The notes: generated by a model not told the origin, from the letters alone. Positions 7,309-52,607 are shown, numbered from the stretch's first letter. The stretch: DNA of 64,000 nucleotides from Bacteroidota bacterium (GCA_019638705.1 JAHBTI010000019.1:1-64000); one strand, 5' to 3'. A program made the numbers and translations.

Positions 7309-7311
7309 ATT

Positions 7312-10658: not shown

Positions 10659-10690
10659 AAACTTATTATTTACTCAAAAATAAATAAAAC

Positions 10691-11242
10691 ATGAACGACA
10701 TTACTCTTTCTGAATTAACCATAGTTGATATTGAACTTGTCCGAAATTGGCGAAACTCACCTGAAGTTTCTCAATATATGTATACTGATGCCGAAATAAC
10801 AGCAGAACAACAATTAAATTGGTTTAAAAAAATTTCTGTTGACCAATCGTGTAAATATTGGATAATAGAATATGAAAATAAAAAGTTAGGCTTAGTAAGT
10901 ATTACAGGAATTGATAAAACATTAAGCAGTTGTTATTGGGCGTTTTATCTTGGCGATACGAGTGTTCGGGGCGGCGGCATAGGTTCAAAAATTGAGTACA
11001 ATATTTTGCAATATGTTTTTAACAAGTTAAAATTAAACAAACTGCGCTGCGAAGTATTTGTTTCTAATGATAAAGTTATAAAAATGCACGAAAAATTCGG
11101 TTTTAGGCGAGAAGCCTATTACAGAGAACATTGCATTAAAGGCGAAAATAAACTCGATGTTGTCGGACTTGGCATTCTAAAAAGCGAATGGCAAATTATA
11201 GAACCCTTGATGAAAGAAAAAATATACGGAACAAAAAATTAA
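10691..11242 (+). CDS. pseH: UDP-4-amino-4,6-dideoxy-N-acetyl-beta-L-altrosamine N-acetyltransferase
   Basis: A 183-residue GNAT protein with the family hallmarks LTIVDIELVRNWRNSPEVSQYM at the N-terminus, YWAFYLGDTSVRGGGIGSKIEY as the acetyl-CoA pyrophosphate loop (here RGGGIGSK), and LNKLRCEVFVSNDKVIKMHEKFGFRREAYYREH. The pattern matches PseH, which acetylates the C4 amino group of the PseC product using acetyl-CoA. It lies six bases before pseI. A second GNAT gene is at 9169, so the division of labour between the two is not certain. Confidence 0.85.
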   Translation: MNDITLSELTIVDIELVRNWRNSPEVSQYMYTDAEITAEQQLNWFKKISVDQSCKYWIIEYENKKLGLVSITGIDKTLSSCYWAFYLGDTSVRGGGIGSKIEYNILQYVFNKLKLNKLRCEVFVSNDKVIKMHEKFGFRREAYYREHCIKGENKLDVVGLGILKSEWQIIEPLMKEKIYGTKN

Positions 11243-11248
11243 AAAGAA

Positions 11249-15633: not shown

Positions 15634-15655
15634 AAACAACAAAAAGATTTATAAG

Positions 15656-35200: not shown

Positions 35201-38200
35201 CAACAAGCAATATGGGGTGCGTGGCTACGGCATCTCAGAATGTTGATGTTTTTCCCATACCTGTTGTTGATTTCACTACAAACCTGAATGTGTGTTTAGG
35301 GGACATAAATACGTTTACCAACACCGCTTCCATTGCATTTCCGGGTGCAATTGTTTCTTACGCCTGGGATTTTGGCGATGGTAATTTTGCTGCCGGCGTG
35401 GGCGGTGGAGCACCTGTTTCAAACGCTTATGCCGCAGTAGGTTCTTATTCGGCAACGTATATAGCCTATTCTGACGAGGAGTGTACAACCGCAGTAACCA
35501 AAACAATAACTGTTCGCCCAACACCAACAGCCTCATTTACCACCAACGGCGGTTGTTTAAACATTGTTTCTAACTTTGTTGATAACAGCACAATTACAGG
35601 TGTGGGCAATAACATTGTTTCATGGAACTGGGATTTTAACGACAACAATACCTCTGCCCTGCAAAATCCAAATTACACTTACACTAATTCAGGCATATTT
35701 ACACCCTCGCTCACGGTAACAACCAACTTCGGCTGTATAGGAGTTGTTTCAAACACATTGCAAATATTTCCGTTGCCCTCTATTTCTTTTGACCCTCCTG
35801 ATGTTTGCACAGGTGTGGTTGTGCAATTTACAAACACGCCCACTGTTCCCACAGGTACTGTAAACTCATTTGTTTGGGATTTTGCCGACAGCACACCTAC
35901 CGTTTCTACGCCTGTACCAAGCCACACTTATGCTACGGGTGCTTATGTGGTTACGGTTACAGTTGGCACAGACCAAAACTGTTTTAACACCAATACCGCA
36001 AATATTTCTGTGTATCCTTATCCTGAAGCTACAATTACGCCGGTAAATAATTCCTGTGTGAATGATATGGTTTCCATTAACACCAACGTTTCCATAACAC
36101 AGGGCGTTGTGGCATCGCACACGTTATCTTATGGCGATGGCGGACAAAGCATTTCTACCACTACTGCACCATATCTTGCTGCACACACCTACACGGCTTA
36201 CAATACATATACCATATCGCTTGCTGCAGAGGGAAGTTTAGGAGGTTGCACCAGAACATTTACCAATACTATTCAGGTTTACCCCAAACCGTTTACCGAT
36301 TTTAATGCCGACAACTTTTGTTTGAATGATGTTACAACATTCACAAACATAAGCACCATTCCTGCAACATACAGCATTACATCTCATCTGTGGGAGTTTG
36401 GCGATGCCTCACCAAATTCCAATTTAAGTTCTGTTACGCATTTATACGCCGGGGCTGGAATGTATGCTGTGAAACTAACAGAGTTCAGTTACATTGATGC
36501 GAATTTAACCTGCTCAACATCTATTGTAAAAACAGTTACCATTAATCCTTTACCTGTTCCTTCATTTACAAACAACAAAGTTTGTGCAGGAACAGCAATG
36601 TCGTTTACCGATACAAGTATTGGCAACAATAATGTTGTCGGTTGGTCGTGGGATTTTGAAAATGTGGGCACAGAAAACAGTTCGTTACAAAATCCTACAC
36701 ATACATACAGCGTGGCAGGTACGCACACCGTAGAATTTACTGCAAGGAACAATTTTGGATGCTCGAGCAGTACATTACAACAAGTTTCTGTTATTTCCAT
36801 TCCGACACCGTCATTTGTTACAAGCAACGTTTGTTTTAATTTGCTTACTAACTTCACAGACCTGAGTACGCAAGATGCAATAGTAACACCAACTAATTTA
36901 TCTTATGCTTGGAATTTGTCTAACGGCGCAACAAGTAACGCGCAAAATCCTGCGCACACCTATACCACCCCCGGAAACTATACGGTTCAATTAACTGTTA
37001 CAAATTTCTCTAATTGCAGCAATGCGTTTACATCAACGTTATCCGTGTATCCTCTGCCTACTGTTTCGTTTAACGCACCTGATGTATGTTTAGGTACAGC
37101 CATTCAGTTTACCAACAACAGCAGCATTTCGTCAGGCACAATAGTGAGCAAGGAGTGGAATTTTAACGACGGAACACCTACGGTATTGGCAAATGCACCA
37201 ACATATACTTACGCTCTTGACGGCGCGTATGTTGTTACACTTACCGCCACCAGCGACCATGGCTGTGTGCAAACCGCCACCGACAACCTTACCGTTCACC
37301 CGTATGCTTCGGCTATAGTATTTCCTGTGGGGGGTACATTCAAATGTATAAACGACCAGGTAACGTTTAATACCAATTTAACTGTTCCTGCGGGAAGCGT
37401 AGCCAGCACGCTGTTTTACGGCGATGGCGCGTTTACCAACTCGGCAGCACAAACTTATACGTCGGCACATACCTATACGACATACGGCACTTATACCGTA
37501 CAGTTAAATACGGTAACGAGTTTGGGTGGTTGCAGCAGAACTTTTACAACCGGTGTTACCGTTTACCCGAGACCGTTTGTGAATTTTGCGGTAAGCAACG
37601 TTTGCCATAACGATACCACCTTATTTACAAATCTGACTACCGTGCCGGGAGGTTATTCGATAGATTCATACCTGTGGAACTTTGGAATTATAGGCGCACC
37701 TAATGCCACCACCACCAATACAAAATTTAAGTACACAAACTCGGGTTCATACAACATTACATTAGTGGCATTCAGCAATGGCTGCTCTTCACAACAGCAA
37801 ACGTTAATTAACATTCGCCCATTGCCTGTGCCTTCATTTACCGCCAACACCGTTTGTGAAGGCTTGCCGACAACCTTTACCAATACAAGCACAGGCAGCG
37901 GAAGTTTATCGCCGCTTTGGGATTTATACAATAACGGACAGGTTTTGGGCACGTTTAACTCTTTCCCTTACACTTACCCTGTTGCCAATACATACAGCGT
38001 TAAACTAACCATTACAACAGCTTTTAATTGTACCGCAAACATTGTTAAAACAGTAACCGTGCTTGCCAAACCAATTCCGTCTTTTACTGCAACCGAAGTG
38101 TGTTTTGGCAACCCTACTTTATTTACCGACCAAAGTGCTGTTGGGTCGGGCATTCAACTAACCTACACATGGACTATGGAAAACGGCGTACCAAACAGTG

Positions 38201-39639
38201 TATTAAACGCCCAAAACCCTTCATATACATACCCTACGGCAGGTTTGCACCTTGTTAAACTCGTTACAAAAAACGATAATCAGTGCAGAGACTCTGTTTA
38301 CAAAAACATTATGGTAAACTTCAGACCAAACGTGAATTTTACCGTGAACACCACTTGCCTTAACCAAAGTACCACGTTCTCTAATCAAACCACTATTCCA
38401 ACAGGCTCTATTACATCGTGGAACTGGGATTTTGACAACGATTCCAACTGGGACAGTCAATTGCTTACGCCAAGTCATACTTATACGGCAGGCGGCATTT
38501 ACTCGTGCATATTGCAAGCTACAAGCAATAAGGGCTGCGTGGCTGCAAAAACAGGAACGGTGTTAGTACACGAAAAACCGACCGCCGATTTCAGTTTCCC
38601 ACGAAGACCCTGCCTCAGCGATGTTGTTGAATATACCAACCTCACCACATCACCAAACGGGTTCATCAGGGGGTATGAGTGGGATTACACATCTGACGGA
38701 ACGGTAGATAATACAACGGCAGAAGCCAAGCACACATTTTCGGTAAACGGCGTGGTGGCTACCAGACTTGCCGTAATAAACAACTTTGGCTGTACCAGCG
38801 TGATAACAAAAACCTTGTACATCAATCCAAAAGCAAAAGCATCGTTTTATGCCGATAAAACAGACGGCTGCCCTGCTTTGTGTGTTATGTTTTCAAATTT
38901 GTCTTCTATTCCGTCAGGTTCTATAACCAACATTGAATGGGATTTTGGAGACGGAGATGTGCCAAGCTACGGACCAAATCCTGTGCACTGTTTTAATTCG
39001 GGTGCTTACGATATTACCATTAAGCTAACCAGCGACAGCGGTTGTGTAACCACACACAATGCCGAAAACTACATAAATGTGCGTAATTTGCCGGTGGCAG
39101 GGTTTAATGTCTTTCCTTCGGAAGTGGACGAAGATGAGCCGAATATTTCCATTGTTTCCAATGCCTCGTCAGATGCAACCTCAGCACGCTATTTTATAAG
39201 CGACGGTGCTAACTTTAATACGTTTGATTTTAACCATACCATTCGTAACCTTGACACAAGAGTGAAACCAATGATAGTGCAGGTAGTAAGAAACCAATAC
39301 GGCTGTGCCGATACCACGTTTAAATTATTAGACCTTAAACCGTCGTTTAATGTTTATGTGCCTGATGTGTTTACACCTAACGGCGACGGACTGAATGATG
39401 TTTTTCAGGTAAAAGGATTGGGAATAAGTAAATTTAATATGAGAATTTTTGACCGTTGGGGACATTTGATTTTTGAATCAAACGACATTAACCAATCGTG
39501 GGACGGCAGAGCAAGAAACAGCGATTCGCCCATAAAAGAAGGGGTGTATATTTGGAAAGCGCGTATAATGGATATTTTCGGGAAAACACACGATTTATCG
39601 GGACACGTTACGGCTCTGATTGATGACGGGGATTATTAA
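32251..39639 (+). CDS. Giant PKD-repeat adhesin-like protein with T9SS type B sorting domain
   Basis: The 2462-residue product starts with a signal peptide (MGIKKYTLLLSFLLFALCNS, then VFGQ). An N-terminal jelly-roll-like region (about residues 110-315; MDFETGTIAGWTLLRAGANT, YRYAVVLNIPG) is followed by about 22 PKD-type modules of roughly 85-95 residues, recognised by cores such as YDWDFGDGSPH, YAWDFGDGNFA, WNWDFNDNNTS and YEWDYTSDGTV. Most repeats are the compact beta-sandwich with the WDFGDG signature, some degenerated (for example YTWTMENGVPN). The C-terminus (about 2370-2462) is the gliding-motility-associated T9SS type B domain: FNVYVPDVFTPNGDGLNDVF and FDRWGHLIFESND. I infer a long surface stalk, probably an adhesin. 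A shared terminator follows. Confidence 0.93.
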   Translation: MGIKKYTLLLSFLLFALCNSVFGQKKQTVADTGAFDYAYWNAVADKMQFDKAGKEEFIIGQKGNYLAELNHNHVHVKEEDIVWTNITPQNQGNGKHGGGSINAAGDDCNNMDFETGTIAGWTLLRAGANTTSVSIASANFGASTNGVDYAIVTAGADPNAPFPRVFPGGNFSLRLGNTDNNQASGARGFATRAQQTFSVTAANAKFTYRYAVVLNIPGNDNSHNFDFQKPRFIAEIVDAVGGISSCSMFSVTAGVGATGFSLATNAIQYKPWSTVIADLTPFIGQNITVRFTAYDCAPTGHFGYAYIDAYCDAWEAGAVDTVCVGSPVTMCAPEGLRTYTWATSGGLQLSTNRCYSTTATGSFVCYTTLFASGATTAVCNGPTFTHTIVNRPSPVIDFTPTPAASCIKNFTFTNGMAAVPPFSGLISSFMWRFGDNTTNTISPNPVHTYSAAGTFSVKLKGTTTFGCSDSIVRTIIAHPEPTVSFNPPSYCENSAVPFISTSSVTAPGAITGYTWNLGGGSVPTSTLQNPVSVYATQGIYPITLDVITNQGCTGTLTQTLNILPPPSITFTAQNKCDVNGTAFSADTYTNITWGSITSYTWNFGDGQTSNAAIPTHNYAAPGAYTITFAATSAANCTAVTSNSFFIAPSPSVAFATTSISACEPQYTFAHVYAQALNTGVLPFIGFHYYWDFGNSVPTATNNPNNPYTFPAIGSYTVKMIGVSEFAGGVFCADTAVHQITIHPYPNININVPSECENAVFTVVSNTTAGSGIVATYDWDFGDGSPHSNQPAPSHAYSAFNTYTVDLHTVSDVGCVRNFSNVITAYPNPVAAFSYSTLNNCSLPYTYTNTSSVANSGGSFISGYLWDFSGVGTNTSAVFQPGIVNFPANGDYTVSLIAISNHDCRDTLTVNILVHPNPEIAFEAEPKCFGNDVPISTSISISPIPNPGASMTYTWNFGDNTTTGVASPPPHTYITSGTYLITFTATSNMGCVATASQNVDVFPIPVVDFTTNLNVCLGDINTFTNTASIAFPGAIVSYAWDFGDGNFAAGVGGGAPVSNAYAAVGSYSATYIAYSDEECTTAVTKTITVRPTPTASFTTNGGCLNIVSNFVDNSTITGVGNNIVSWNWDFNDNNTSALQNPNYTYTNSGIFTPSLTVTTNFGCIGVVSNTLQIFPLPSISFDPPDVCTGVVVQFTNTPTVPTGTVNSFVWDFADSTPTVSTPVPSHTYATGAYVVTVTVGTDQNCFNTNTANISVYPYPEATITPVNNSCVNDMVSINTNVSITQGVVASHTLSYGDGGQSISTTTAPYLAAHTYTAYNTYTISLAAEGSLGGCTRTFTNTIQVYPKPFTDFNADNFCLNDVTTFTNISTIPATYSITSHLWEFGDASPNSNLSSVTHLYAGAGMYAVKLTEFSYIDANLTCSTSIVKTVTINPLPVPSFTNNKVCAGTAMSFTDTSIGNNNVVGWSWDFENVGTENSSLQNPTHTYSVAGTHTVEFTARNNFGCSSSTLQQVSVISIPTPSFVTSNVCFNLLTNFTDLSTQDAIVTPTNLSYAWNLSNGATSNAQNPAHTYTTPGNYTVQLTVTNFSNCSNAFTSTLSVYPLPTVSFNAPDVCLGTAIQFTNNSSISSGTIVSKEWNFNDGTPTVLANAPTYTYALDGAYVVTLTATSDHGCVQTATDNLTVHPYASAIVFPVGGTFKCINDQVTFNTNLTVPAGSVASTLFYGDGAFTNSAAQTYTSAHTYTTYGTYTVQLNTVTSLGGCSRTFTTGVTVYPRPFVNFAVSNVCHNDTTLFTNLTTVPGGYSIDSYLWNFGIIGAPNATTTNTKFKYTNSGSYNITLVAFSNGCSSQQQTLINIRPLPVPSFTANTVCEGLPTTFTNTSTGSGSLSPLWDLYNNGQVLGTFNSFPYTYPVANTYSVKLTITTAFNCTANIVKTVTVLAKPIPSFTATEVCFGNPTLFTDQSAVGSGIQLTYTWTMENGVPNSVLNAQNPSYTYPTAGLHLVKLVTKNDNQCRDSVYKNIMVNFRPNVNFTVNTTCLNQSTTFSNQTTIPTGSITSWNWDFDNDSNWDSQLLTPSHTYTAGGIYSCILQATSNKGCVAAKTGTVLVHEKPTADFSFPRRPCLSDVVEYTNLTTSPNGFIRGYEWDYTSDGTVDNTTAEAKHTFSVNGVVATRLAVINNFGCTSVITKTLYINPKAKASFYADKTDGCPALCVMFSNLSSIPSGSITNIEWDFGDGDVPSYGPNPVHCFNSGAYDITIKLTSDSGCVTTHNAENYINVRNLPVAGFNVFPSEVDEDEPNISIVSNASSDATSARYFISDGANFNTFDFNHTIRNLDTRVKPMIVQVVRNQYGCADTTFKLLDLKPSFNVYVPDVFTPNGDGLNDVFQVKGLGISKFNMRIFDRWGHLIFESNDINQSWDGRARNSDSPIKEGVYIWKARIMDIFGKTHDLSGHVTALIDDGDY

Positions 39640-41092: not shown

Positions 41093-42031
41093 TTAAAAAT
41101 TCACTCTTTCCTTTTCAATCACCAAAGGGCGTTTTCTTACTTGTGTGTGAATAGCTCCAATGTACTCGCCAATAATTCCTATAAAAAACAACTGTATGGA
41201 AGAGAAAAAGAAAATACCAATTACCATAGGTGCTGTGCCAACCTGAAAATTATCCCAATAAATTAATTTATAAACTAAATAACCAATAGCTACAAGAAGG
41301 CTTATAATTGCGGTGAAAAAACCAATAAATGCCGATAAACGCAATGGTATCTTGGAATGATTGACGAAACCAAGCATTGCAAGGTCGTAAAGGGTAAAGA
41401 AATTATTTTTTGATTTGCCAAATTCTCTTTTATCCTGTGTATATTCCAAAGTTTTTATATTCCACCCGTATTCTATCACCATTCCTCTAAAATAAGGATA
41501 AGGGTCATCTATCATTCTCACAACATTTAAAAATTTCTGGTCATATAAACCGAATCCGGTGAAATTGGAAAGTTGATCTATGTTTGAAATTCTCTTAATA
41601 ATAAAGTAAAATATTTTCCGGATAAAAAACATAAAAGGATTTTCTTTGCTTTTTGTTTTAATTCCAAGCACTAAAACAGACCCTTTTTCCCATTCTTTTA
41701 TAAATTTCGGTATCATTTCCGGAGGGTCTTGTAAATCTGCAACCATTGCAATAACAGCTTCGCCTGTACATTGAAGAAGTCCATAATAAGGCGAACGGAC
41801 ATGACCAAAATTACGGACATTGGATATAACCTTCACTCGCCTGTCTTTCTCTGCGATTGTTTTAATAACAGACAGTGTATTGTCTGATGAGGCGTTATCT
41901 ATAAATAAATGTTCAAAATCATAATCTGAAATAGTATTGGTAACTTGGCGTACGCGCAGGTATAAGTTTTCAATGTTTTTTTCTTCATTGTAACATGGTG
42001 TGAATATGGTTATTTTCTTTCGCTCTTCCAT
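41093..42031 (-). CDS. Family 2 glycosyltransferase with two C-terminal transmembrane segments
   Basis: The 312-residue protein resembles polyprenyl-phosphate glycosyltransferases (DPM1/GtrB type). It has TIFTPCYNEEKNIENLYLRV, LFIDNASSDNTLSVI and the metal-binding VAMVADLQDPPEMIPKFI (DxQDPPE). Two hydrophobic segments near residues 225-250 and 260-290 anchor it in the inner membrane. It probably makes undecaprenyl-phosphate sugar for a GT-C transferase or for periplasmic glycan modification. The ATG at 42031 is chosen; an ATG five codons upstream (42046) is equally possible. The next gene diverges on the other strand, 41 bases away. Confidence 0.88.
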   Translation of the reverse strand: MEERKKITIFTPCYNEEKNIENLYLRVRQVTNTISDYDFEHLFIDNASSDNTLSVIKTIAEKDRRVKVISNVRNFGHVRSPYYGLLQCTGEAVIAMVADLQDPPEMIPKFIKEWEKGSVLVLGIKTKSKENPFMFFIRKIFYFIIKRISNIDQLSNFTGFGLYDQKFLNVVRMIDDPYPYFRGMVIEYGWNIKTLEYTQDKREFGKSKNNFFTLYDLAMLGFVNHSKIPLRLSAFIGFFTAIISLLVAIGYLVYKLIYWDNFQVGTAPMVIGIFFFSSIQLFFIGIIGEYIGAIHTQVRKRPLVIEKERVNF

Positions 42032-42072
42032 ATTTTTATAATACATTTACGCCACTAAGATAGTGCTTAAGT

Positions 42073-42822
42073 ATGAATTTAATTCAAAAAAAAATACTCC
42101 GCTTGGGATACAATTTGGTGCGATTATCCAAGCCTTATAAAAAAAATAACCTGACATATAGCAGGGTATTGCCTTTGGCGATTTATTCGCCGTGGTACGA
42201 TGATAAAATATTTCAGGATACCTATAAAAAAATAGCTACAAAATATACATTGGTGGACGAATTCAGGTGTTTTGAACTTTGGAAATTAATTGAACAAACA
42301 AATAAATTAGATGAAACCGCTGCTGTTCTTGAAGTTGGAGTTTGGAGAGGTGGAACAAGTGTAATAATGGCAACTAAACTGAAACTATTGAATTCATCTT
42401 CCGTAGTTTATGCAGCTGACACGTTTGAAGGAGTGGTTAAAACATCGGAAAAAGATGCCAGCTATCGTGGAGGTGAACATGCCGATACAAGTTTAGACCT
42501 CTTTTTCAATTTATATACAAGTCTTGGATTAAAAAATATTAATACACTAAAAGGTATTTTCCCTGAACAAACAGCGAGTCAAGTTCCTACAGATACCAAG
42601 TTTAAATTATGTCATATAGATGTTGATGTATATTTATCCGCCAAAGATGTGCAGGATTGGATTTGGGATAAGCTTATTATAGGTGGCATGATTTTATTTG
42701 ATGATTACGGTTTTAGCTCTACGAATGGTATTACCAATTTTGTGAACGAGCAAATGCTTCTGAATGACCGTGTAATTCTTCATAACTTAAATGGTCATGC
42801 AGTTATTATAAAAATAAAGTAA
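42073..42822 (+). CDS. TylF/MycF-family O-methyltransferase
   Basis: The 249-residue protein matches sugar O-methyltransferases of the macrocin (TylF/MycF) type: YTLVDEFRCFELWKLIEQTN, the SAM site AAVLEVGVWRGGTSVIMAT (about residues 84-102), YAADTFEGVVKT and the metal/His motif KLCHIDVDVYLSAKDV. The DDYG pair near residue 217 (MILFDDYGF) is typical. It probably O-methylates a deoxysugar of the glycan. It is transcribed opposite to its neighbours, diverging from the GT2 gene and converging with the epimerase gene. Confidence 0.85.
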   Translation: MNLIQKKILRLGYNLVRLSKPYKKNNLTYSRVLPLAIYSPWYDDKIFQDTYKKIATKYTLVDEFRCFELWKLIEQTNKLDETAAVLEVGVWRGGTSVIMATKLKLLNSSSVVYAADTFEGVVKTSEKDASYRGGEHADTSLDLFFNLYTSLGLKNINTLKGIFPEQTASQVPTDTKFKLCHIDVDVYLSAKDVQDWIWDKLIIGGMILFDDYGFSSTNGITNFVNEQMLLNDRVILHNLNGHAVIIKIK

Positions 42823-42852
42823 ACACCAGAACAATATTTCGGTTGTTTTAAA

Positions 42853-43866
42853 TCAGTCCGTTTTCAAATTAGGAGTTTGGGTTTCTTTGATAGACTCTTC
42901 AATAGTTGTCCATACGTTTAAACCTAAAGATATGGCTTTGGCAATTGATGGCACATAATTTAATCTCCGTTCTTGTTTTATCGTTCCAAGCACTACCACT
43001 TTTTTTTCAGGTGCCAGTATGTCTCGTACCAATTCAGCCAGTTTTATGATGGAATAAGCTTTGTCAGACCCGACATTATATGGTTCACTTTTTCCGTCTG
43101 CAAGCAATTTAAGTAGCCAAACGGCTAAATCTTGACCATGCAAAAAACTTCTTCTGGCAAGACCGCTGCCATTTATCCGTAGTTCTTTATCATTAAGAGC
43201 CTGCCGGATTAAAATATTTAAAATCAAATGTGAGCCTATCCCAAAGCCTGCAAATGCAAAACAGCGAGCTGTTATCACTTCAAAACCGTTTTCTTTACCA
43301 TAACTGTATGCAAGCATTTCTGAGGCGCGCTTAGCCTCTCCATACACGTTTTCAGTATAGTTGGATTCGGGAGCAGTTGTTAAGTTTTCAGGAATGAAAG
43401 GAATATCTTTTGAAACCTCACCGTAAACAGCACCTGAACTGATTATTAATACTCTTTCGGCTCTGCTGGCAACAATATGCTCTAATACATGATTTGTACC
43501 TGCTACAATTTCATTAAACACAGTAACCGGCTTTTCAAATCCAAGTGGTTTTGTGTTTGCAGCCCCATGAATAAACATATCAAATTTTTCACTCGTGAAA
43601 GGGTAGTTCAATACATCACCTTTAACCCAATTTAGCCAATCAATACTATTGTATTCCGGATTATTTTTTAAAAAAATCTCCGGGTTTCTAGAAAGGAGAG
43701 TAATCCTTATCTGAAAACCGTTTGTGTTGAGCAGATTAAATAATTTCAGCAACCAGTAGCCAAAAAAACCTGTTCCGCCTGTTATAAATATTGATTTGCC
43801 CTTTAATGCGGATAAATTAACTCGGTTAATGATTTGCTCATATTTTTCAGATGTAACAGGTGCCAC
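42853..43866 (-). CDS. NAD-dependent epimerase/dehydratase (extended SDR)
   Basis: A 337-residue extended short-chain dehydrogenase with the cofactor motif SIFITGGTGFFGYWLLKLFN near residue 25, an IHGAANTKPLGFEKPVTVFN segment, the catalytic Tyr-x-x-x-Lys as VYGEAKRASEML (about residues 174-178) and SSGAVYGE upstream. The C-terminal half (RINGSGLARRSFLHGQDLAV, PYNVGSDKAYSI) is like UDP-glucose 4-epimerases and GDP-sugar reductases. It probably modifies a nucleotide sugar in this locus. The product is unknown. It is the last gene of the minus-strand run that starts with YfhO. Confidence 0.85.
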   Translation of the reverse strand: MAPVTSEKYEQIINRVNLSALKGKSIFITGGTGFFGYWLLKLFNLLNTNGFQIRITLLSRNPEIFLKNNPEYNSIDWLNWVKGDVLNYPFTSEKFDMFIHGAANTKPLGFEKPVTVFNEIVAGTNHVLEHIVASRAERVLIISSGAVYGEVSKDIPFIPENLTTAPESNYTENVYGEAKRASEMLAYSYGKENGFEVITARCFAFAGFGIGSHLILNILIRQALNDKELRINGSGLARRSFLHGQDLAVWLLKLLADGKSEPYNVGSDKAYSIIKLAELVRDILAPEKKVVVLGTIKQERRLNYVPSIAKAISLGLNVWTTIEESIKETQTPNLKTD

Positions 43867-43893
43867 TATATAATCATCAATGTTCTGTCAAAA

Positions 43894-45072
43894 CTAATAT
43901 AATTTAATGACTTTATTCGTAAGCCCAAGGGTATTTCTTATCTGACTCTCAATCTCATTTTGATAAGGACGGGTAGAAATAAGAATAGTATCTGTTTTTG
44001 ATTTCAAAGATTCAGGAGATATAACATTAACACCATTCAAACTCTTTCCCTGATATTTTGGATTAGAATCTACAAAAGCAGATATTTTTACATCTCTTAA
44101 TTTGCTGTTTACGAGTAAACGCAACGTTTGTGCGCCGGTACCCCAGACAATTATAGATTCATTTTCACCCCCTATTTTTTCAATAATGGCGTTTATTTCT
44201 TTTTCTTTCGCATGGCACATTTCAACGTAAGCAGCTATATTTTTAGGCGACTCTTTGTCCATCACAAAATTAGTATCAGCAGCAAGTTCTTTCCTAAACA
44301 CAGAAAGGATAGCCGGTGTAACCGTGTTGTGATTAACATTAAGCGGTACTTGTGAAATGTCAACTTTCGAGAATTTATTTTTTTTCATCAGGTTATCCAG
44401 CGAACCGGGTCCGAAGAAGTTAATATGCTCAACGCTAAATTCCTGAAAAGGAGCATCCTGACCATTAAAGTACTGTGAACCATCAGGTACACCAATAAAA
44501 ATATGCCCATCGGGCGTTAATAATTTCCATAATTTTTCCAAGGACTCATCTAGGTCTTTAATGTGTTCCAACACTCCCACGAGTATCAGCATATCTATTG
44601 AGCCATTAGGCAATTCAATATTTGAAATTGTGTTGGTGAGCACATTGATGCCATAATGTCTTTTTGCCGCGGAAGTACACCCCGGCGAAGGGTCTATTCC
44701 CGTGAGGTTCAGATACCCTTCCTTTTTAAACATTGACAACAAAAATCCGGTTGCACAACCCACTTCTACTATATGCATATGTGTATCGGGTAGAAATGGT
44801 TTAAGATATTTTACCATTGCTTCAAATCTCAACCTATCATAATACCCTTCTTTTACCTCAACGGTATTACTTTCATATTTTGACAGTTCGCGATAATAAA
44901 CATCAAACTTTTTTTGGTCAGGAATGTTATCTGCATAACAAAAACCGCAATTATTGCAAGCAACAACATCATAGGAGTCTAACAAGTTAGTGTCTGAAAA
45001 ACCTGAAAAACTCTGATGAAATAATTTTTGATTTTTTTTACCGTCACAAATCGGACAATTTCTTTTTTCCAT
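43894..45072 (-). CDS. Sugar C-methyltransferase-like protein (TylCIII/NovU type)
   Basis: The 392-residue protein has three parts. An N-terminal zinc-binding region (residues 5-45) has CPIC and CNNCGFCYADN. A SAM-binding core follows, with HIVEVGCATGFLLSMFKKEG and LILVGVLEHIKDLDESLEKL. The C-terminal domain (about 290-392) has SIIVWGTGAQTLRLLVNS and ISAFVDSNPKYQGKSLNGVN, typical of the C-methyltransferase C-terminal domain (Methyltransf_13/23/14 order). Such enzymes C-methylate keto-deoxysugar nucleotides. It is followed 27 bases later by the epimerase. Confidence 0.86.
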   Translation of the reverse strand: MEKRNCPICDGKKNQKLFHQSFSGFSDTNLLDSYDVVACNNCGFCYADNIPDQKKFDVYYRELSKYESNTVEVKEGYYDRLRFEAMVKYLKPFLPDTHMHIVEVGCATGFLLSMFKKEGYLNLTGIDPSPGCTSAAKRHYGINVLTNTISNIELPNGSIDMLILVGVLEHIKDLDESLEKLWKLLTPDGHIFIGVPDGSQYFNGQDAPFQEFSVEHINFFGPGSLDNLMKKNKFSKVDISQVPLNVNHNTVTPAILSVFRKELAADTNFVMDKESPKNIAAYVEMCHAKEKEINAIIEKIGGENESIIVWGTGAQTLRLLVNSKLRDVKISAFVDSNPKYQGKSLNGVNVISPESLKSKTDTILISTRPYQNEIESQIRNTLGLTNKVIKLY

Positions 45073-45117
45073 TGATTAAAATTAAATAATAAATACAATT
45101 CAAACTTTATTTAAATC

Positions 45118-46107
45118 CTAAGCCGATAGAATATCTTCAATTCCTATAATACGCTCATTTTCAATTCCGTAAATCATTAAATCCATCTTTATTTCTTCAA
45201 AAAAATCAATAGAAGAAATAAGTATTTTTTCTCTTTTTAATAAGACCTCATCTACTTTCAGATAATTATGTTTAACGTATTCCTTTTTTTCCTCTTTATC
45301 CAATATTCCGATTACATGTTCCATAATCTTATCCACCGGTTTGATAAGTGCCAAAAAATTTCCTCCTGTACCGTAGATATAAAATTTATCTCCACACCTT
45401 TCAATAACTCTTTCTAAAAAATCTGTTTTAACAGCAGGCTTTATCGCCATTACACGAATACAATCATTGTAGCGTGGGGACTCGAATCCTCTCGTTTCCA
45501 TGTGCAGAATTTTTAACCCCACAGATTTCATTAAATGCATCATGGATAGTGGTGAAAAAAAATGAATATGTTCCTGATTTAAATCGTATTCAACATGAGC
45601 ATTACCACTCTGATTCGGCACTTCTATACAAATGTATTTGTTACTAAGTGCCAAGCAATCGGATAAAAATTGTATAGGATTTTGTATGTGCTCAACAACA
45701 TGGAAAAGGCTTAGAACATCGTACCTTGATTTGAATTTACCCAAATCATGTATATCATGGTCATACACATGGTCAAGATTTTTGGTGGCAACGATTTTAT
45801 CCATGGATAGTTCTACACCGTCCACCCGTTTTAAGGTTAATTTTTGTTTGAGATATGCTCCTAAAAAACCCTCGGCACAACCTACATCAATCATCGAACT
45901 AAATTTATACTTTTTCAGAAACTCATACCGTTCCCTATTCTTACGGTCGGTATGCAGCACCCGGTTATTTCTGTTGTGTTTTTCCTTATAGTCTTGCGCA
46001 ATAATATTTTTCCGGAAAAGATGTTGGCAATTACTGCAATTTAACAGCTCATATTTAGTTTCTGTAACCGATTGGGAATTACAACAAGGGCATTTTTGGA
46101 TTTCCAT
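45118..46107 (-). CDS. Class I SAM-dependent methyltransferase, C-methyltransferase-like
   Basis: A 329-residue protein with a Cys-rich N-terminus (KCPCCNSQ and LNCSNCQHLF, a likely zinc knuckle), the SAM core SMIDVGCAEGFLGAYLKQKL and LSLFHVVEHIQNPIQFLSDC, and a later MT-associated segment (KFYIYGTGGNFLALIKPVDK). It is shorter than its neighbour at 43894 but similar in layout, so the two may be paralogues acting on different sugars or positions. The ATG at 46107 is preferred over a TTG at 46119. It is 45 bases from the neighbouring gene. Confidence 0.83.
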   Translation of the reverse strand: MEIQKCPCCNSQSVTETKYELLNCSNCQHLFRKNIIAQDYKEKHNRNNRVLHTDRKNRERYEFLKKYKFSSMIDVGCAEGFLGAYLKQKLTLKRVDGVELSMDKIVATKNLDHVYDHDIHDLGKFKSRYDVLSLFHVVEHIQNPIQFLSDCLALSNKYICIEVPNQSGNAHVEYDLNQEHIHFFSPLSMMHLMKSVGLKILHMETRGFESPRYNDCIRVMAIKPAVKTDFLERVIERCGDKFYIYGTGGNFLALIKPVDKIMEHVIGILDKEEKKEYVKHNYLKVDEVLLKREKILISSIDFFEEIKMDLMIYGIENERIIGIEDILSA

Positions 46108-46143
46108 CTCAACAATCAAAATAATTTTTACACATAAACCAAG

Positions 46144-47970
46144 TCAGGAATTACGAACCCTCAAACTCTCAGGGCTAATATCAACCAACATTTGTTCTTT
46201 TAATTCTTCAATACTCAACAAGGGGGTCATATCTTCCAAAGGCATAGAAATCATACTTCCGTCTGCTTGAGGAATTGCGGCTACTTTAGGAGACAATACC
46301 TCGTTAGGGATTAATTTCACATTTACAATAGCAGGCTTTTGAGAACTAATAGCAGTTGCCAATGTTTTTTCCATTGTTTCCACATTACTCGTTTCATAAT
46401 AATCTAAGCCGTATGTTGCGGCAATATCTTTTAAGTTCGGCAACCACAAGCCCGCTTCAGGTCCTGTTCCTACAAGTCTGCCTTTAAAATAATTATTTTG
46501 TGTGTTGCGAATTGAAGTGTAACCATTGTTGTTTAATACCACCAAGCAAATTGGTAATTGATGTTGCCTGATTGTAGCAAACTCTTGTATATTTAATTGA
46601 AGACTACCGTCACTTTCCACAGCTACAATCGGCTTCATATCATTGCCCACACAAGCACCAATGGCTGCTGGTAAACCATAACCCATTGCACCCAAACCGG
46701 CTGTTAAAAACAGCCTCTGCCCTTTTTTATTTTTAAATACTGTATAAAACGCTTCCACGGCTAAACCTGAGCTTCCTGTTCCTATCAATGTGTTTTCAGG
46801 AATTACATTTGAAAGGGCTAATGCAATGTGATAATGACTTATTACACCTGATGTGCTAAATGGTTTGCCGTCATTAACAGAGTATTTGTTTTTCCAATCC
46901 AAGCATTTTCTTCGCCATTCATCAATACTCAACTTTTTAAGGTTAGATTTGTTTAACAAAGTAAAGAATAGTGTTGCATCGGTAAGAATTTTTTCTTCAA
47001 CAATCATGTCAAGTTTATCCAACTCTTTAATGTCAATATCTACCACTACTTTTTTTGCATTACGTGCAAACTGCTTTGGATTAAAAGCTGTGATAATATT
47101 ATCCAATCTGCAACCAACACTAATTAATAAATCAGAATTTTGAATTGCAAAATTAGGAGCACGCAAAGCAACCGAACCAGGCTTACCTACATTTAAAGGG
47201 TGGTCAAAAGGTAGAAAGTCCATAGCGTTCCAAGTTGCTATCACAGGCATTTGTGTTTTTTCTACAAACTTCTCAAATTCTTGTTTAGCCCCTGAAAGCC
47301 TTGCGCCGTTACCAATTAAAAGAAGTGGGCGTTTTGCGCCATTTATTAATTTTAGCGTTTGTTCAATGCTGTTTTCTAAAGCCACATTATCTTCCTGAAT
47401 TTTTTCCGGAACAAAACCTTTCAATTTTGTTTCATCTATTGGTGCGCCCTGAACATCTAATGGTATGTCAATCCAAACCGGTCCTTTACGCCCTGTGGTT
47501 GACAAATGAATAGCTTTTTCCAATTCGTATTTAATATCTTCAGGCACTTCAATTGTTTTAGCATATTTGGTAATTGTTTTTACCATAGTTACAATATCCA
47601 CTTCTTGCACACCTTTTTGCCGCAAGCCAGAATCTTTAAGAAGGTCTGAACGTTTTGCTTGTCCCGAAATAACCAACATGGGAATAGAGTCTATCCATGC
47701 TCCGGCAACGGGTGTTATTATATTGGTTGTGCCAGGACCCGTTGTAACTACTGCTACTCCAAATGTTTCTCGTACTCGTCCTGCCGCTTCTGCAGAAATA
47801 CCAACAGCCTGCTCATGATGACAAGCGATTGTTTTAATACCGTTTTGTTTGCCAAAAGCATCTATCAAATGCATGGCTCCACCGCCGGGTAATAAAAAAA
47901 CTTCTTTAATTCCTATACTCTGAATATACGCGGAGATAAAATCCGCCACACGAAACACTTCTTTTGACAT
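46144..47970 (-). CDS. Thiamine-diphosphate enzyme of the acetolactate synthase fold
   Basis: The 608-residue protein has the three-domain layout of ThDP enzymes such as acetolactate synthase. The N-terminal domain holds IKEVFLLPGGGAMHLIDAFG and the catalytic glutamate in ACHHEQAVGISAEAAGRVRE (about residue 53), then VVTTGPGTTNIITPVAGAW. The C-terminal cofactor domain has GAMGYGLPAAIGACVGNDMK and the ThDP/Mg motif, here VESDGSLQLNIQEFATIRQH, followed by VVLNNNGYTSIRNTQ. Biosynthetic acetolactate synthases usually have GDG at that site. Relatives in sugar loci act on keto-sugars (YerE adds an acetyl branch). No regulatory subunit is adjacent, so a role in branched-sugar synthesis is inferred over valine/isoleucine synthesis. 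Confidence 0.87.
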   Translation of the reverse strand: MSKEVFRVADFISAYIQSIGIKEVFLLPGGGAMHLIDAFGKQNGIKTIACHHEQAVGISAEAAGRVRETFGVAVVTTGPGTTNIITPVAGAWIDSIPMLVISGQAKRSDLLKDSGLRQKGVQEVDIVTMVKTITKYAKTIEVPEDIKYELEKAIHLSTTGRKGPVWIDIPLDVQGAPIDETKLKGFVPEKIQEDNVALENSIEQTLKLINGAKRPLLLIGNGARLSGAKQEFEKFVEKTQMPVIATWNAMDFLPFDHPLNVGKPGSVALRAPNFAIQNSDLLISVGCRLDNIITAFNPKQFARNAKKVVVDIDIKELDKLDMIVEEKILTDATLFFTLLNKSNLKKLSIDEWRRKCLDWKNKYSVNDGKPFSTSGVISHYHIALALSNVIPENTLIGTGSSGLAVEAFYTVFKNKKGQRLFLTAGLGAMGYGLPAAIGACVGNDMKPIVAVESDGSLQLNIQEFATIRQHQLPICLVVLNNNGYTSIRNTQNNYFKGRLVGTGPEAGLWLPNLKDIAATYGLDYYETSNVETMEKTLATAISSQKPAIVNVKLIPNEVLSPKVAAIPQADGSMISMPLEDMTPLLSIEELKEQMLVDISPESLRVRNS

Positions 47971-47976
47971 AATTTC

Positions 47977-49488
47977 TCAGGAAATCCAATAAGTTAAAAG
48001 AGTTTTTCTGTTTTTGTTTTTGCTGATGCTTTCATCTGTATAAAACGAATCGTTTACAAAATGGGTAGATGAAATTTCTTCTATTACACTTCCTGTTTCG
48101 GTAATAAATGAATGGCGAACACCAGGTTGAATAGTTATCACATCGCCGGGTTTCATTTCGCTTTCTTCACCGTTTAATTTTACTTTTACATTACCATACA
48201 GTACATGAAAAGTTTCTTCTTTTTGATTATGGTATTGCTCGGGGTGAAATTGACCGGGTAGCGAAATGAGTAATTTTTTACAATACTCTCTATTTACAAC
48301 GGTAATCATTGTTAAACCTGTTTCGTAAAATTTTTCAATTCCGTAGTGATGAGAAATTTCCAAATCGGCTTTCTGAGGAATAGTGATACCACTTTCTTTA
48401 AGTAATCTTTTTACTTCACCTGCAATTTCCAATACTTTATCGCTTGAGTTATAACTGGTGGTATTAGTTGTGTTTACTGCTGCATTTGCAGCAATTTCTG
48501 CTTTAGCAGTAAACGTGGTATATTTTGACCAATCGTTGGCTCTAATTTGTCCTTCTGATGCAGGAAAAGCAAAATAAACATCGTTTGTAGAAACTGTTTC
48601 GCCTGCTTTTATATCTCTTTTTACAAATGCCCCACGTTGTAATGACAATAAGCTGTCGCGCTCGTTTTTATTTACAGTAAGCAATCTGTCTGTTTGCCCG
48701 CACATAATAAAGGCTTCTTTGGCTGAGTTCAACCATTTTTCATATTGTTCAGGAGTTGAAGAATATGCATTTAACGGTGCATTTGGAGTAGGAACACCAA
48801 CGTGTTTTTCAAAAATAGAAGCATTTTTTGCTACGGCAATTTTCACAAGGTCTAAATTGTCAGGCTCTTCATGAGTTGAAAAGCCAACGGTTAAACCCGG
48901 ATACCTTTGTTTCAGAAAGTCAAGTTGAGATAAATTCATTTTTTCAATTGGTGTTGGATATTCGCCAACACAGTGCATAATGGCAAATTCTTTGTTTCGG
49001 TGAGAAAGGAAACTTACAACTCTGTCTATTTCTTCAATCGAAGCACCGGCTGTTGAAGCAATAACAGGCTTGTCAGTTTTTACGATACGCTCTAATAATG
49101 ACCAATCTGTAAAAGAGCAACTTGCTACTTTTATTATTTCAAGATTTTGCTCCAAAATAACATCAACTGAAGGTTCGTCAAACGGAGTTGACATAGTGAT
49201 AAAACCATTATTGCGCATTTCTTCCACCAAACGGTTAAAATCATTTCTACTTAACTTAGTTTCAGAAAAACGTTTTACATATTTCACATCATCACGCCCT
49301 TTAAATGAGGGGTGAATAAAAGTGTCCAAATCTCTGTATTGCAATTTAAAAGCAAATTTGAACATTGGAAAATTCCTACATACTTCTCCAAAGGCTTTTA
49401 TTATTGTTATTCCATGGTTTACATCTCCCATGTGATTGTTCGCCATCTCCAGCACAAAAAGTGGTTTATCTGCTATTTTCATATTCAT
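47977..49488 (-). CDS. NeuB-family synthase fused to a cupin domain
   Basis: The 503-residue protein joins three modules. A NeuB-type TIM barrel (about residues 1-265) has FVLEMANNHMGDVNHGITII, STPFDEPSVDVILEQNLEII, VIASTAGASIEEIDRV, IMHCVGEYPTPIEKMNLSQL, TVGFSTHEEPDN and ASIFEKHVGV (metal His). A SAF-like segment follows near 290-330 (RGAFVKRDIKAGETVSTNDV). A C-terminal cupin (about 385-490) has FHPEQYHNQKEETFHVLYGN and MKPGDVITIQPGVRHSFI, with the His/Glu metal ligands of cupins; it looks somewhat like D-lyxose isomerase cupins. NeuB enzymes condense PEP with a sugar. The fused cupin could isomerise the acceptor sugar. The final sugar is unknown. Confidence 0.88.
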   Translation of the reverse strand: MNMKIADKPLFVLEMANNHMGDVNHGITIIKAFGEVCRNFPMFKFAFKLQYRDLDTFIHPSFKGRDDVKYVKRFSETKLSRNDFNRLVEEMRNNGFITMSTPFDEPSVDVILEQNLEIIKVASCSFTDWSLLERIVKTDKPVIASTAGASIEEIDRVVSFLSHRNKEFAIMHCVGEYPTPIEKMNLSQLDFLKQRYPGLTVGFSTHEEPDNLDLVKIAVAKNASIFEKHVGVPTPNAPLNAYSSTPEQYEKWLNSAKEAFIMCGQTDRLLTVNKNERDSLLSLQRGAFVKRDIKAGETVSTNDVYFAFPASEGQIRANDWSKYTTFTAKAEIAANAAVNTTNTTSYNSSDKVLEIAGEVKRLLKESGITIPQKADLEISHHYGIEKFYETGLTMITVVNREYCKKLLISLPGQFHPEQYHNQKEETFHVLYGNVKVKLNGEESEMKPGDVITIQPGVRHSFITETGSVIEEISSTHFVNDSFYTDESISKNKNRKTLLTYWIS

Positions 49489-49511
49489 TATATTCTTCCC
49501 TTTTATTGATT

Positions 49512-50150
49512 TTAATTACTGATTACTCTCATCAACTCCAAAATAGAGTGAATGGCAAATTTAGGATTTTTCTTAATCAAATCTTCTTTTTTTTCGTAAC
49601 CGTAAGTTATTGCTACTGTGATTAGTCCACAAACCTTTCCTGCTTCTATGTCTTTCTGACCGTCTCCAACCATAATCCCCTCTTTTATATTATTTTCTGC
49701 GCAAATTTGCCTAACCATTTCTTCTTTTGAAGTGATTTTTCCTTTTGTTTGGTCGCTTGCTTTTACTGAAGTTATAAAGTTTGACAATTGCTTTTGTGCC
49801 AAAATTTTTAACGTAGGTGCTAAACGCTTGTTTGTTGCTATATGAAGAATATAGTTGTTGTTGTGCAATTGTTTTAATGTTTCGTAAACATGAGGATACA
49901 ACAACGTTTTTTCAAAAGTTGAATTGTCATATACTTCCGAAAAAATATTCTTTGCTTCTGTAATCTTTTTCGCATCACCTTTGTAGATAATTTCCAAAGT
50001 GGCTTGCAAAGTAGCTGTAAGGCTTATGGAATTCAAATCAAGTGGGTCGCTTGGTGGCAATTTTTCACACACTTGTTTAAATGTATCCAAAACCTCTTGT
50101 TTGGAATCAACTAAAGTACCGTCAAGGTCAAATATAATATGCTGAGTCAT
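49512..50150 (-). CDS. HAD-superfamily phosphatase
   Basis: The 212-residue protein has the four HAD motifs: IIFDLDGTLVDS (nucleophile and acid Asp), ILHIATNKR (motif II Thr), a lysine in SDQTKGKITSKEEM (motif III) and GIMVGDGQKDIEAGKVCGL (motif IV). The cap is of the helical C1 type. It resembles phosphoglycolate phosphatase and gives no specific substrate, but its position 23 bases upstream of the NeuB-cupin gene suggests it removes a phosphate from the product of a phosphorylated-sugar condensation, as NeuC/KdsC-type steps do. Stop and start with YfhO are 9 bases apart. Confidence 0.88.
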   Translation of the reverse strand: MTQHIIFDLDGTLVDSKQEVLDTFKQVCEKLPPSDPLDLNSISLTATLQATLEIIYKGDAKKITEAKNIFSEVYDNSTFEKTLLYPHVYETLKQLHNNNYILHIATNKRLAPTLKILAQKQLSNFITSVKASDQTKGKITSKEEMVRQICAENNIKEGIMVGDGQKDIEAGKVCGLITVAITYGYEKKEDLIKKNPKFAIHSILELMRVISN

Positions 50151-50159: not shown

Positions 50160-52607
50160 TTACGCTGCTTTTTCAACTTTATTTTTTGCACTAAACTTTT
50201 TTGTATTGAAAAAAAGCAAACCCACAAAAATCACCATAAAGATTAAAGATATAATTATCCCCTCCCTTTTAAAACGAGGCTCAAACTTCAATTCCACCTC
50301 ATTACTCCCCTTTTGCGTAAGCAAACCCGTCAATCCGCAATTCAAACGGTACAACTTTGCTTCTTGACCGTTAATTGTGGCTTTCCAACCTGCATCAAAC
50401 GGAAATGAGAAAAATAAAATTTTTGGCTCGTTTGTGTTTACGCTTCCTGTAATATGGTTTTCGGAAAACTTGGTAACGGAAAAATTATCTTGCTTTAATT
50501 CGTTTCCAAACGCAGCGTAATTATCAAATGTAATTGGCTGCAACGTATCCATGGCATTAAATTTTTGAATGAAAGCAAAACTTTGCAAATCCTCATCATC
50601 AATTACGCAAGCACGAAGCATGGCAAAATCCTTTTGATTAGGCGAAAACTTCATAAAATCGGTGTGCGAAATAACTTTGTTGTATGTTAAACCAAACGGA
50701 AGTGCATATTTATTTTGATACACGCGCACATCACCAAAGGCATGAATAGAATCCATACCCATGCCGCTTAAAGCATTGTCGGTGCGTTTGCTCAACCAAT
50801 ATTTTCCTGCGCACAACGAAAACAACACAGGTCTGTCTGCCAAGCCTTTTGCCCAACGTGTAGAATTTTCATCACTCGCATCAATCACATCTAATTCGCC
50901 CAAAAACTTAATGTAATTTTTTTGATTGAAAGAAAAGTATGACGGCGTTCCGTAAAAACCCTGCACTTTGGCATCGTTAATGCTTCCGTGAATAGCCATG
51001 CCCGAAGCATATTCTTTATTTACGCGGTAGAAACTTTTGTCAATGCTTTTTAAATAGTTTATGCTTTCAACCGTGTAATCGTTGTAACCAACTTTTGCCT
51101 GCAATAATTGTTTGGTCATTACATCGCGTTTGTTTACCGTAATGTTTGAATTGACAAACAGTTCCAACACACACAGCACAAGAATTGCCGTTTTAGAAAA
51201 ATTTTTAATGTTAGCTTTTTGCGTTAATCCAAACAACAAGCCTGAATACGCTAAAATTAAAAACGTTGCAAAAGAACGCAAACCTGTGTTTATACCCTGT
51301 TTAAACTGTGCGTTTGGCGAGTACAATAAAATCAATAAAAACGCGACTGTTATAATCAAAGTGATTTTATTCAACTTACCGTTTTTTTCAATGTGTGAAA
51401 TGGCGCGCACCGCAAACATCAACATAAACAAAACAATTACTAAAGAAAATGTACGGAAATAATCTCCCGTAAACGCCCAAAACGCATAACGGAAAAAGGG
51501 AAACATAATCGGCAAACACAACAAAGCCGTGAGTATGCCGTAAAAATATTTTTGACGTTTATTTAAAGAACTAAAAAATTGCGGAAAAGCCACCAAACTC
51601 AAAATACCGCAGTAAAACAAAGGAGCTTCCAAATAATTTTGCCAACCTCTAAAATTGTTTCCTGTGCCAATCATGTCGCTGCCAAAACTTCTGAAAACCG
51701 TTGTAAACCTCAACACAGGGTCAGCCAAAGCAAACATGGGTTGATTTTGAAGCTTTGCAAAAAAACTTGCTTCGCCGCCCACACGCGGACTTTCGGTGTA
51801 TTGCAACATATCCGCAAACAATTGATAAGAACTTATAAGTACCGCAACCGCAGCAATGCCAATGGTTTTAAGCGTGAACAAAATAAATTGTTTTGTGTTT
51901 TTTTCTTTTACATCGTGGTAGCGAACTATGGCATAGCCAGCCAGCAAAATGGTGTACATAAACAAAAAGAAAGGTTGCAAAAACGCCAACAGGGTAATGC
52001 CAACTGCCAACCACAAAAATTTTCCGTGCTGCAACCAACGTTCAAAACCATAAAGAATAATTGCCGCGTAAAGGGCTTCCACCGAAAAAATTGTCCAGCA
52101 ACCACCAAGAATAACATAGCCCGAAAAAGCGTAACACAAAGCGCCAATCAATGAGGAGTAGTTACCAAGTTTCAATTCTTTTAAAAATTTATAGAATACA
52201 AAACCTGCCAAGAAAATTTTCAAAATCTCAACAAACACCAACACATAAGGAATTGTTTGCTTGTCAAAAAAAGTAACAACAGTTGTAAAAAAATCGCTGA
52301 GGTACATGGGAAATAAATTTTGCCCCATACCCTGTTGAAACGACCAGCCCACAACAAAACCCTCATTTTTCATGTAATCGGACTGAGCGGCAATTCCGGG
52401 GAAATAAATGTTTATGGAATCGCTGCCAATATCGCGAAACAAATACACTTTTTTTAAACTTATAAAATCACTGAACACGAAATAACTTACAAGCATGGTA
52501 ATGCCAAGCAAATAATACAATTCTTTGCCTTTAATATAAGTGTCGTAAAAATTTTTGTCGGAAGCAGGTGCGGCAGTTTTTGCAGCTGATTTATTTTGTT
52601 TGGACAT
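50160..52607 (-). CDS. YfhO family membrane protein
   Basis: An 815-residue polytopic membrane protein with about twelve to fourteen hydrophobic segments. It begins near residue 30 with LYYLLGITMLVSYFVFSDFI, has SYQLFADMLQYTESPRV in an extracytoplasmic loop, and a large soluble region of about 240 residues near the C-terminus before a last transmembrane segment (REGIIISLIFMVIFVGLLFF). It matches the YfhO family (GT-C fold) of bacterial membrane glycosyltransferase-like proteins, which can modify lipoteichoic acid or other surface polymers; the Bacteroidota role is less clear. It appears to head the minus-strand run to 42853. Confidence 0.85.
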   Translation of the reverse strand: MSKQNKSAAKTAAPASDKNFYDTYIKGKELYYLLGITMLVSYFVFSDFISLKKVYLFRDIGSDSINIYFPGIAAQSDYMKNEGFVVGWSFQQGMGQNLFPMYLSDFFTTVVTFFDKQTIPYVLVFVEILKIFLAGFVFYKFLKELKLGNYSSLIGALCYAFSGYVILGGCWTIFSVEALYAAIILYGFERWLQHGKFLWLAVGITLLAFLQPFFLFMYTILLAGYAIVRYHDVKEKNTKQFILFTLKTIGIAAVAVLISSYQLFADMLQYTESPRVGGEASFFAKLQNQPMFALADPVLRFTTVFRSFGSDMIGTGNNFRGWQNYLEAPLFYCGILSLVAFPQFFSSLNKRQKYFYGILTALLCLPIMFPFFRYAFWAFTGDYFRTFSLVIVLFMLMFAVRAISHIEKNGKLNKITLIITVAFLLILLYSPNAQFKQGINTGLRSFATFLILAYSGLLFGLTQKANIKNFSKTAILVLCVLELFVNSNITVNKRDVMTKQLLQAKVGYNDYTVESINYLKSIDKSFYRVNKEYASGMAIHGSINDAKVQGFYGTPSYFSFNQKNYIKFLGELDVIDASDENSTRWAKGLADRPVLFSLCAGKYWLSKRTDNALSGMGMDSIHAFGDVRVYQNKYALPFGLTYNKVISHTDFMKFSPNQKDFAMLRACVIDDEDLQSFAFIQKFNAMDTLQPITFDNYAAFGNELKQDNFSVTKFSENHITGSVNTNEPKILFFSFPFDAGWKATINGQEAKLYRLNCGLTGLLTQKGSNEVELKFEPRFKREGIIISLIFMVIFVGLLFFNTKKFSAKNKVEKAA

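Follow-up and report, generated by a model that had tools for sequence, protein, structure and literature searches.

We propose, at a probability of roughly 0.7, that a gene run in a Bacteroidota bacterium makes a long-branched deoxy sugar, in which an ulosonate made by a NeuB-type synthase is grafted by a ThDP enzyme onto a CDP-3,6-dideoxy-4-ketohexose. The ulosonate is better read as a consumed branch donor than as the end product. The run lies in the window, by which we mean the whole 64,000-nucleotide stretch that was analysed, on contig 11 of a 3.22-Mb genome with a reported completeness of 99.94%.

The gene run and its two central proteins

Seven genes on the minus strand, from 52607 down to 42853, follow one another in the order YfhO-HAD-NeuB/cupin-ThDP-MT2-MT1-epimerase (Table 1). 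The gaps between them (9, 23, 6, 24, 45 and 27 bp, in that order) are short, so the run looks like one operon. TylF and GT2 genes lie after its epimerase end. All named genes are open reading frames, and their families were called with Pfam and NCBIfam profiles; both coordinates and families of the gene set at 41093-50150 in a preliminary description are confirmed. The minus-strand run given there is real but larger than stated, since it also includes the YfhO gene. Two of its products had been called C-methyltransferase-like. This holds for MT1, whose nearest solved structures are TcaB9 and 3-C-methyltransferases, but MT2 matched only the generic Methyltransf_23 profile; MT2 may have a tailoring role.

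Table 1 Genes of the run and its flank, with the profile matches on which the family calls rest
Feature	Coordinates	Strand	Profile matches
YfhO-family membrane protein, PgfM-like GT-C candidate	50160..52607	-	PF09586 231 bits; weak PgfM1/PgfM2 matches
HAD phosphatase	49512..50150	-	HAD_2 86 bits
NeuB-type PEP synthase (residues ~1-345) fused to D-lyxose-isomerase-like cupin (~350-503)	47977..49488	-	NeuB 140 bits, Cupin_2 44.9 bits
YerE/JanthE-like ThDP carboligase (predicted)	46144..47970	-	TPP_enzyme N/M/C ~110 bits each
MT2, SAM methyltransferase, Cys-rich N-terminus	45118..46119	-	Methyltransf_23 59 bits; weak solved relatives
MT1, SAM methyltransferase, sugar C-methyltransferase type	43894..45072	-	Methyltransf_23; Methyltransf_14 27.8 bits (above cut-off)
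Extended-SDR epimerase/reductase	42853..43866	-	Epimerase 123 bits
TylF-type O-methyltransferase	42073..42822	+	TylF 69.8 bits
GT2, ArnC/PgfS-like polyprenyl-phosphate sugar transferase candidate	41093..42046	-	PF00535 85.7 bits; PgfS 190 bits (below cut-off)

Several of these genes keep the same company elsewhere (loci from other genomes are given L numbers). In many relatives of the same family the ThDP gene is flanked by YfhO, here the first gene of the run; a GT2 homologue flanks it in many relatives too and lies, in mycobacteria, between RfbF and NeuB/ThDP. Epimerase homologues are near the ThDP gene in many relatives. The HAD gene directly adjoins NeuB also in L055-L057, and the epimerase of proteobacterial loci carries a fused HAD-like segment. 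A 74% identical copy of TylF stands beside the syntenic locus of L055. Elsewhere in the window are an ORF of 2462 aa (32251-39639) with many repeated PKD-like segments, seen by eye, which probably encodes a secreted surface protein, and a separate Pse/Leg-type locus (6268-18023) with its own PseI-like NeuB and a cytidylyltransferase (8477-9172).

The NeuB part of the fusion protein is closest to 3g8r of Chromobacterium violaceum (417 bits), with NmNeuB more distant. In an AlphaFold2 model (pLDDT 92) it forms a TIM barrel that Foldseek matched to 3g8r (TMt 0.94) and also to the 1xuu fold, and the NeuB metal-binding histidines, H206 and H229, are invariant in 29 homologues. Fold and both histidines are shared with the NeuB/PseI/SpsE synthases and 3g8r. 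The protein differs from those synthases in its cupin fusion, in the absence of a CMP-synthetase partner from the ThDP-type loci described here, and in two features of sialic, legionaminic and pseudaminic acid synthases that it lacks: Phe occupies the position of the AFP-domain arginine R314 of NmNeuB, and around E134 the sequence is ASCSFTDW, almost that of 3g8r. These two differences make an N-acetylated acceptor unlikely. Residues beyond ~350 matched the D-lyxose isomerases 2y0o (TMt 0.71, rmsd 1.8, 29% identity), 7nzq (with D-mannose) and 7nzp (with D-fructose), and PF07385 scored 33 bits. At the cupin metal site H420, E425 and H459 are invariant, and isomerase activity is uncertain because the first position is Q or H.

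The ThDP protein has the three-domain decarboxylase-superfamily fold (TPP_enzyme N, M and C), and its nearest solved structure is JanthE (8rph; 375 bits; Foldseek TM 0.90). It keeps the catalytic Glu (HHEQ). The canonical GDG motif is replaced by SDG, here and in many relatives, but GDG does not define the family, because the accepted YerE-like member JanthE has CDG. SDG is common in the NeuB-cupin-linked clade (the window protein, L003, L005-L007, L015, L031, L034, L035 and L137-L145). In a tree of ThDP proteins the window protein falls on the side of JanthE, apart from AHAS (100/100), and is not nested with PpYerE, which we take to be 5ahk. A YerE-like aldehyde-ketone cross-coupling enzyme is predicted.

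We also considered that the protein might be an ordinary acetolactate synthase that serves branched-chain amino acid synthesis and lies near sugar genes by chance. Acetolactate synthase does take the top NCBIfam rank, and the protein is the sole match of its kind in its own genome: a search of the whole genome with the window protein found no other ThDP gene of the AHAS type, and the genome may thus lack branched-chain amino acid synthesis. However, the top-ranked score of 342 bits is below the curated cut-off of 538, the protein is outside the AHAS clade, and its sugar-locus context is conserved. We consider this reading very improbable and rejected it on the score and the tree.

Partners of the NeuB-cupin and ThDP genes in other genomes

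One scan yielded 34 NeuB-cupin loci from many phyla, and relatives added 3. These 37 loci divide into 18 with a ThDP gene only, 12 with a CMP-synthetase gene only, none with both and 7 with neither, several of the last being short contigs (Fisher 3.7e-5). At least three changes between ThDP and CMP contexts are required on a tree of NeuB proteins. In this neighbourhood check the NeuB-cupin/ThDP set co-occurs in many genomes, from Pseudomonadota, Bacteroidota, Actinomycetota, Cyanobacteriota and a few archaeal MAGs, which is more than chance and supports the earlier idea of a coherent sugar pathway using NeuB-type PEP condensation and YerE-type ThDP branching. The pairing also holds from the ThDP side, in draws of ThDP homologues from two phyla with L005 and the window added. 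Twelve homologues were at least 50% identical, and in 9 of the 11 that could be assessed (L141 is cut by a contig end) a NeuB-cupin gene lies at most 215 bp away; the NeuB of L142 was found by tblastn, having been missed by longest-ORF picking, and no adjacent NeuB was found in L140 or L143, whose ThDP proteins are >50% identical. Near most of the more distant ThDP homologues lie CitE-like, DmpG/DmpF or NeuB genes.

The division of the loci bears directly on the proposed end product. The preliminary description saw no CMP-sugar synthetase in the ThDP locus, which is borne out, and supposed that pseF of the other locus, or a gene outside the window, might activate a branched or methylated nonulosonate-like sugar. 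This final sugar is probably wrong, since ThDP and CMP-synthetase genes are mutually exclusive in NeuB-cupin loci, and since the partners of the ThDP gene elsewhere are CDP-glucose RfbF/RfbG/RfbH and interchangeable makers of alpha-ketoacids. CMP activation by PseF of the window is unneeded and contradicts the exclusion, and we rejected it. An acetyl branch, with pyruvate as the donor, fits plain YerE, which is placed in a different part of the ThDP tree.

A related possibility is that the genes serve two separate sugars, with the NeuB-cupin nonulosonate activated by PseF or an unlinked CMP-synthetase and the ThDP enzyme using pyruvate to attach an acetyl branch to a keto sugar. Other loci do pair NeuB-cupin with CMP-synthetases, the other locus of the window does contain a cytidylyltransferase gene, and plain YerE does use pyruvate (PMC12247030). 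We nevertheless think two sugars unlikely: no locus combines the ThDP and CMP-synthetase genes, the NeuB stop is 6 bp from the ThDP start and the two genes adjoin across phyla, the corresponding slots of relatives swap NeuB for aldolases that make 4-hydroxy-2-ketoacids, and the window ThDP protein groups with JanthE rather than PpYerE.

Three loci of the same family (L051, L052, L053) combine NeuB-cupin with a CMP-synthetase, another fate of the NeuB-cupin product, and an L021 homologue of this CMP-synthetase carries a HAD-like C-terminal segment. An apparent CMP-synthetase match downstream of the ThDP gene in proteobacterial loci was discarded, as it covers only the shared HAD-like C-terminal segment and not the cytidylyltransferase domain.

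ThDP-type loci usually have the order RfbF-RfbG-RfbH-NeuB/cupin-ThDP and are surrounded by genes for epimerases, methyltransferases, HAD and Nudix proteins and radical-SAM enzymes. Of these, Nudix and radical-SAM genes, B12-binding radical-SAM ones included, are found repeatedly (L003, L006, L013, L018, L030, L035 and others) but are absent around the window locus. In a stricter count that left out loci cut by contig ends, RfbH was present in the genome for 15 of 18 ThDP-type loci and 1 of 9 CMP-type loci (L036; Fisher 6e-4); the ThDP-type genomes in which it was not found (L025, L031, L035) are small or partial assemblies. Among 150 relatives, 19 had a ThDP match, 33 had RfbH and 16 had both, so that RfbH accompanied the ThDP gene in 16 of 19 relatives and occurred in 17 of the 131 without it (5.6e-10). 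The ThDP gene is in this way associated with genes for CDP-3,6-dideoxy-4-ketohexose. The window's own genome has RfbF (436 bits), RfbG (463 bits) and RfbH (709 bits) in a single run on contig 24, and each exceeds its curated cut-off. We count their location on another contig than the window locus against the proposed pathway.

That location would also fit a ThDP enzyme that uses the ulosonate with a different acceptor, for instance a nucleotide keto sugar made locally by the epimerase-family protein, or a proton, in which case a 2-deoxy-aldose would result. The few ThDP-type genomes that show no RfbH point the same way, as does the Shewanella sfm operon, in which a NeuB protein, a TPP enzyme and a methyltransferase serve to decorate flagellin (PMC3765264). 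However, RfbH tracks the ThDP gene in relatives, RfbF-G-H lies directly upstream in most ThDP-type loci, and the window's own genome keeps RfbFGH, beside which no other dideoxyhexose gene was recognised. We regard a different acceptor as doubtful, and take CDP-3,6-dideoxy-4-ketohexose as the acceptor in what follows.

A proposed route to a branched sugar of 12 to 14 carbons

In the proposed route, the HAD phosphatase and the lyxose-isomerase-like cupin would supply a free aldose from a ketose or ketose phosphate; we propose that the phosphatase frees a sugar phosphate, either ahead of the NeuB reaction or following it. The NeuB domain, to judge from its fold and conserved metal ligands, would join PEP and the aldose into a 3-deoxy-4-hydroxy-2-ulosonic acid, which as a 3-deoxy-4-hydroxy-2-ketoacid would be a fitting donor for the ThDP enzyme. 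Homology, neighbourhood and the tree suggest that the latter decarboxylates the 2-ketoacid and couples the resulting acyl anion to C4 of the CDP-3,6-dideoxy-4-ketohexose that RfbF, RfbG and RfbH would make. The branch ketone might then be reduced by the epimerase-family protein, a candidate for a YerF-type role, in parallel with the ketoreduction proposed for branched octoses (PMC4753412), and MT1 and MT2 (and TylF) may methylate the sugar. By family membership, GT2 could transfer it to polyprenyl phosphate and YfhO could transfer it onward outside the membrane. This would yield an erwiniose/caryophyllose-type sugar of 12 to 14 carbons, with 14 if the aldose is D-mannose and 13 if it is D-lyxose.

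Two known sugars come close to this scheme. ErwE, the erwiniose enzyme, prefers long hydroxylated 2-ketoacids, with CDP-4-keto-3,6-dideoxyglucose as acceptor, and makes no use of pyruvate, and MMAR_2332 has been tied to caryophyllose (PMC12247030). Both share with the window locus the ThDP superfamily, an expected donor of the hydroxylated long 2-ketoacid kind and genes for CDP-3,6-dideoxy-4-ketohexose (PMC12247030), whereas the window locus differs in its predicted source of the donor, a PEP-dependent NeuB with an isomerase-like cupin, in its extra methyltransferases and in the SDG motif. Yersiniose A has the same CDP-4-keto-3,6-dideoxyglucose acceptor and ThDP branching, but YerE takes pyruvate (PMC12247030), and PpYerE and its local homologues lie elsewhere in the tree.

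Caryophyllose is 3,6-dideoxy-4-C-(1,3,4,5-tetrahydroxyhexyl)-hexose, and M. marinum no longer adds it when MMAR_2331, 2332 or 2333 is deleted (PMC5706390). We infer that its branch corresponds to 3,7-dideoxyheptulosonate after decarboxylation and ketone reduction; the carbon logic would fit a C12 branched product of the caryophyllose pathway. In four sampled mycobacterial genomes and L009, compact loci hold NeuB (with or without cupin), ThDP, GT2 and RfbF, with RfbH-RfbG divergent. In L105 and L106 the order is RfbF-GT2-ThDP-NeuB, from which we predict a NeuB-type product for MMAR_2331, the neighbour of MMAR_2332.

The pairing of NeuB with a TPP enzyme is already seen, differently interpreted, in Shewanella oneidensis sfmABCDE, where genes for a NeuB-domain protein, a TPP enzyme and a methyltransferase form one operon and the nonulosonic acid is read as pseudaminic acid (PMC3765264). 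Unlike the window protein, the sfm NeuB has 290 aa, too short for a cupin; an ATP-grasp gene is present, and no RfbFGH is named for sfm in the passages considered (PMC3765264).

Exchange of proposed donor-making genes beside the ThDP gene

Same-family relatives have, between YfhO and GT2 and often next to RfbF-G-H, a slot whose ThDP gene has varying partners: 4-hydroxy-2-oxovalerate aldolase and acetylating acetaldehyde dehydrogenase (DmpG+DmpF) in L086, L090, L091 and L093; an HpaI-type aldolase in L084, L085 and L087; a CitE-like protein in L082 and L083; HAD and cupin-less NeuB in L055-L057; and HAD and NeuB-cupin in the window. To judge from the chemistry of their families, these aldolases and NeuB enzymes yield 4-hydroxy-2-ketoacids, and the CitE-like protein presumably does so too.

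The ThDP tree sorts by donor module. Rows linked to NeuB-cupin fall together, as do those linked to HpaI (100/100); JanthE groups with DmpG/DmpF-linked rows (100/100), same-family rows with cupin-less NeuB group with CitE-linked ones, and PpYerE stands with rows that lie near RfbH or occupy the same slot but have no recognised ketoacid maker. The NeuB label needs two changes on the tree against a shuffled mean of 15.7, and 0 of 500 shuffles were as low, a result that is partly ascertained because most NeuB-linked rows were found through NeuB.

JanthE (8rph, 8rpi, 8rpj; Janthinobacterium sp. HH01) resembles the window protein as its nearest structure, in a neighbouring clade and with a non-GDG motif, but the two are ~33% identical, with CDG in JanthE and SDG in the window, and the nearest relatives of JanthE occur with DmpG/DmpF rather than NeuB. 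The closest found (60-63% identical, CDG) are those of the four DmpG/DmpF-type slots listed above, beside the aldolase and dehydrogenase genes. JanthE accepts 4-hydroxy-2-oxovalerate, although its physiological substrates are unknown (PMC12188165). The position of its relatives beside DmpG/DmpF-type genes suggests 4-hydroxy-2-oxopentanoate as the natural donor of JanthE-type enzymes.

More broadly, we lean towards a widespread modular route to very large branched sugars, in which a nonulosonate-type acid made from PEP by NeuB-cupin, as a bifunctional isomerase-synthase, is joined to a second sugar, a nucleotide deoxy-keto sugar, by decarboxylative C-C grafting with a YerE-like enzyme, the donor module being exchangeable (NeuB-cupin, NeuB, DmpFG, HpaI-type or CitE-like) and the acceptor and branching parts constant. 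The NeuB-cupin and ThDP locus probably belongs with YerE-type sugar branching, the new element being the predicted donor-making enzyme. Word searches of open-licence papers found no literature joining NeuB, YerE and RfbH; a YerE-cluster survey outside that scope may cover part of this. More than 200 YerE-like clusters were reportedly surveyed in 2024 (PMC12247030). For the many YerE-like enzymes that have no known physiological substrate, the scheme names a donor, and hence a substrate, that can be tested, and it would extend the role of the NeuB family beyond the making of CMP-nonulosonates. It leads us to expect branched surface sugars of 12 to 14 carbons in all the groups in which the gene set was found, archaeal MAGs included, and offers enzymes for carbon-carbon coupling of sugars.

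A further type of ThDP locus, often with RfbFGH, carries genes for a CitE-like protein, an SDR and an AroB-related 'cyclizing' sugar-phosphate lyase (L082, L158 and L160-L163; TIGR04425, 401 bits in L082), and may give a carbocyclic branch.
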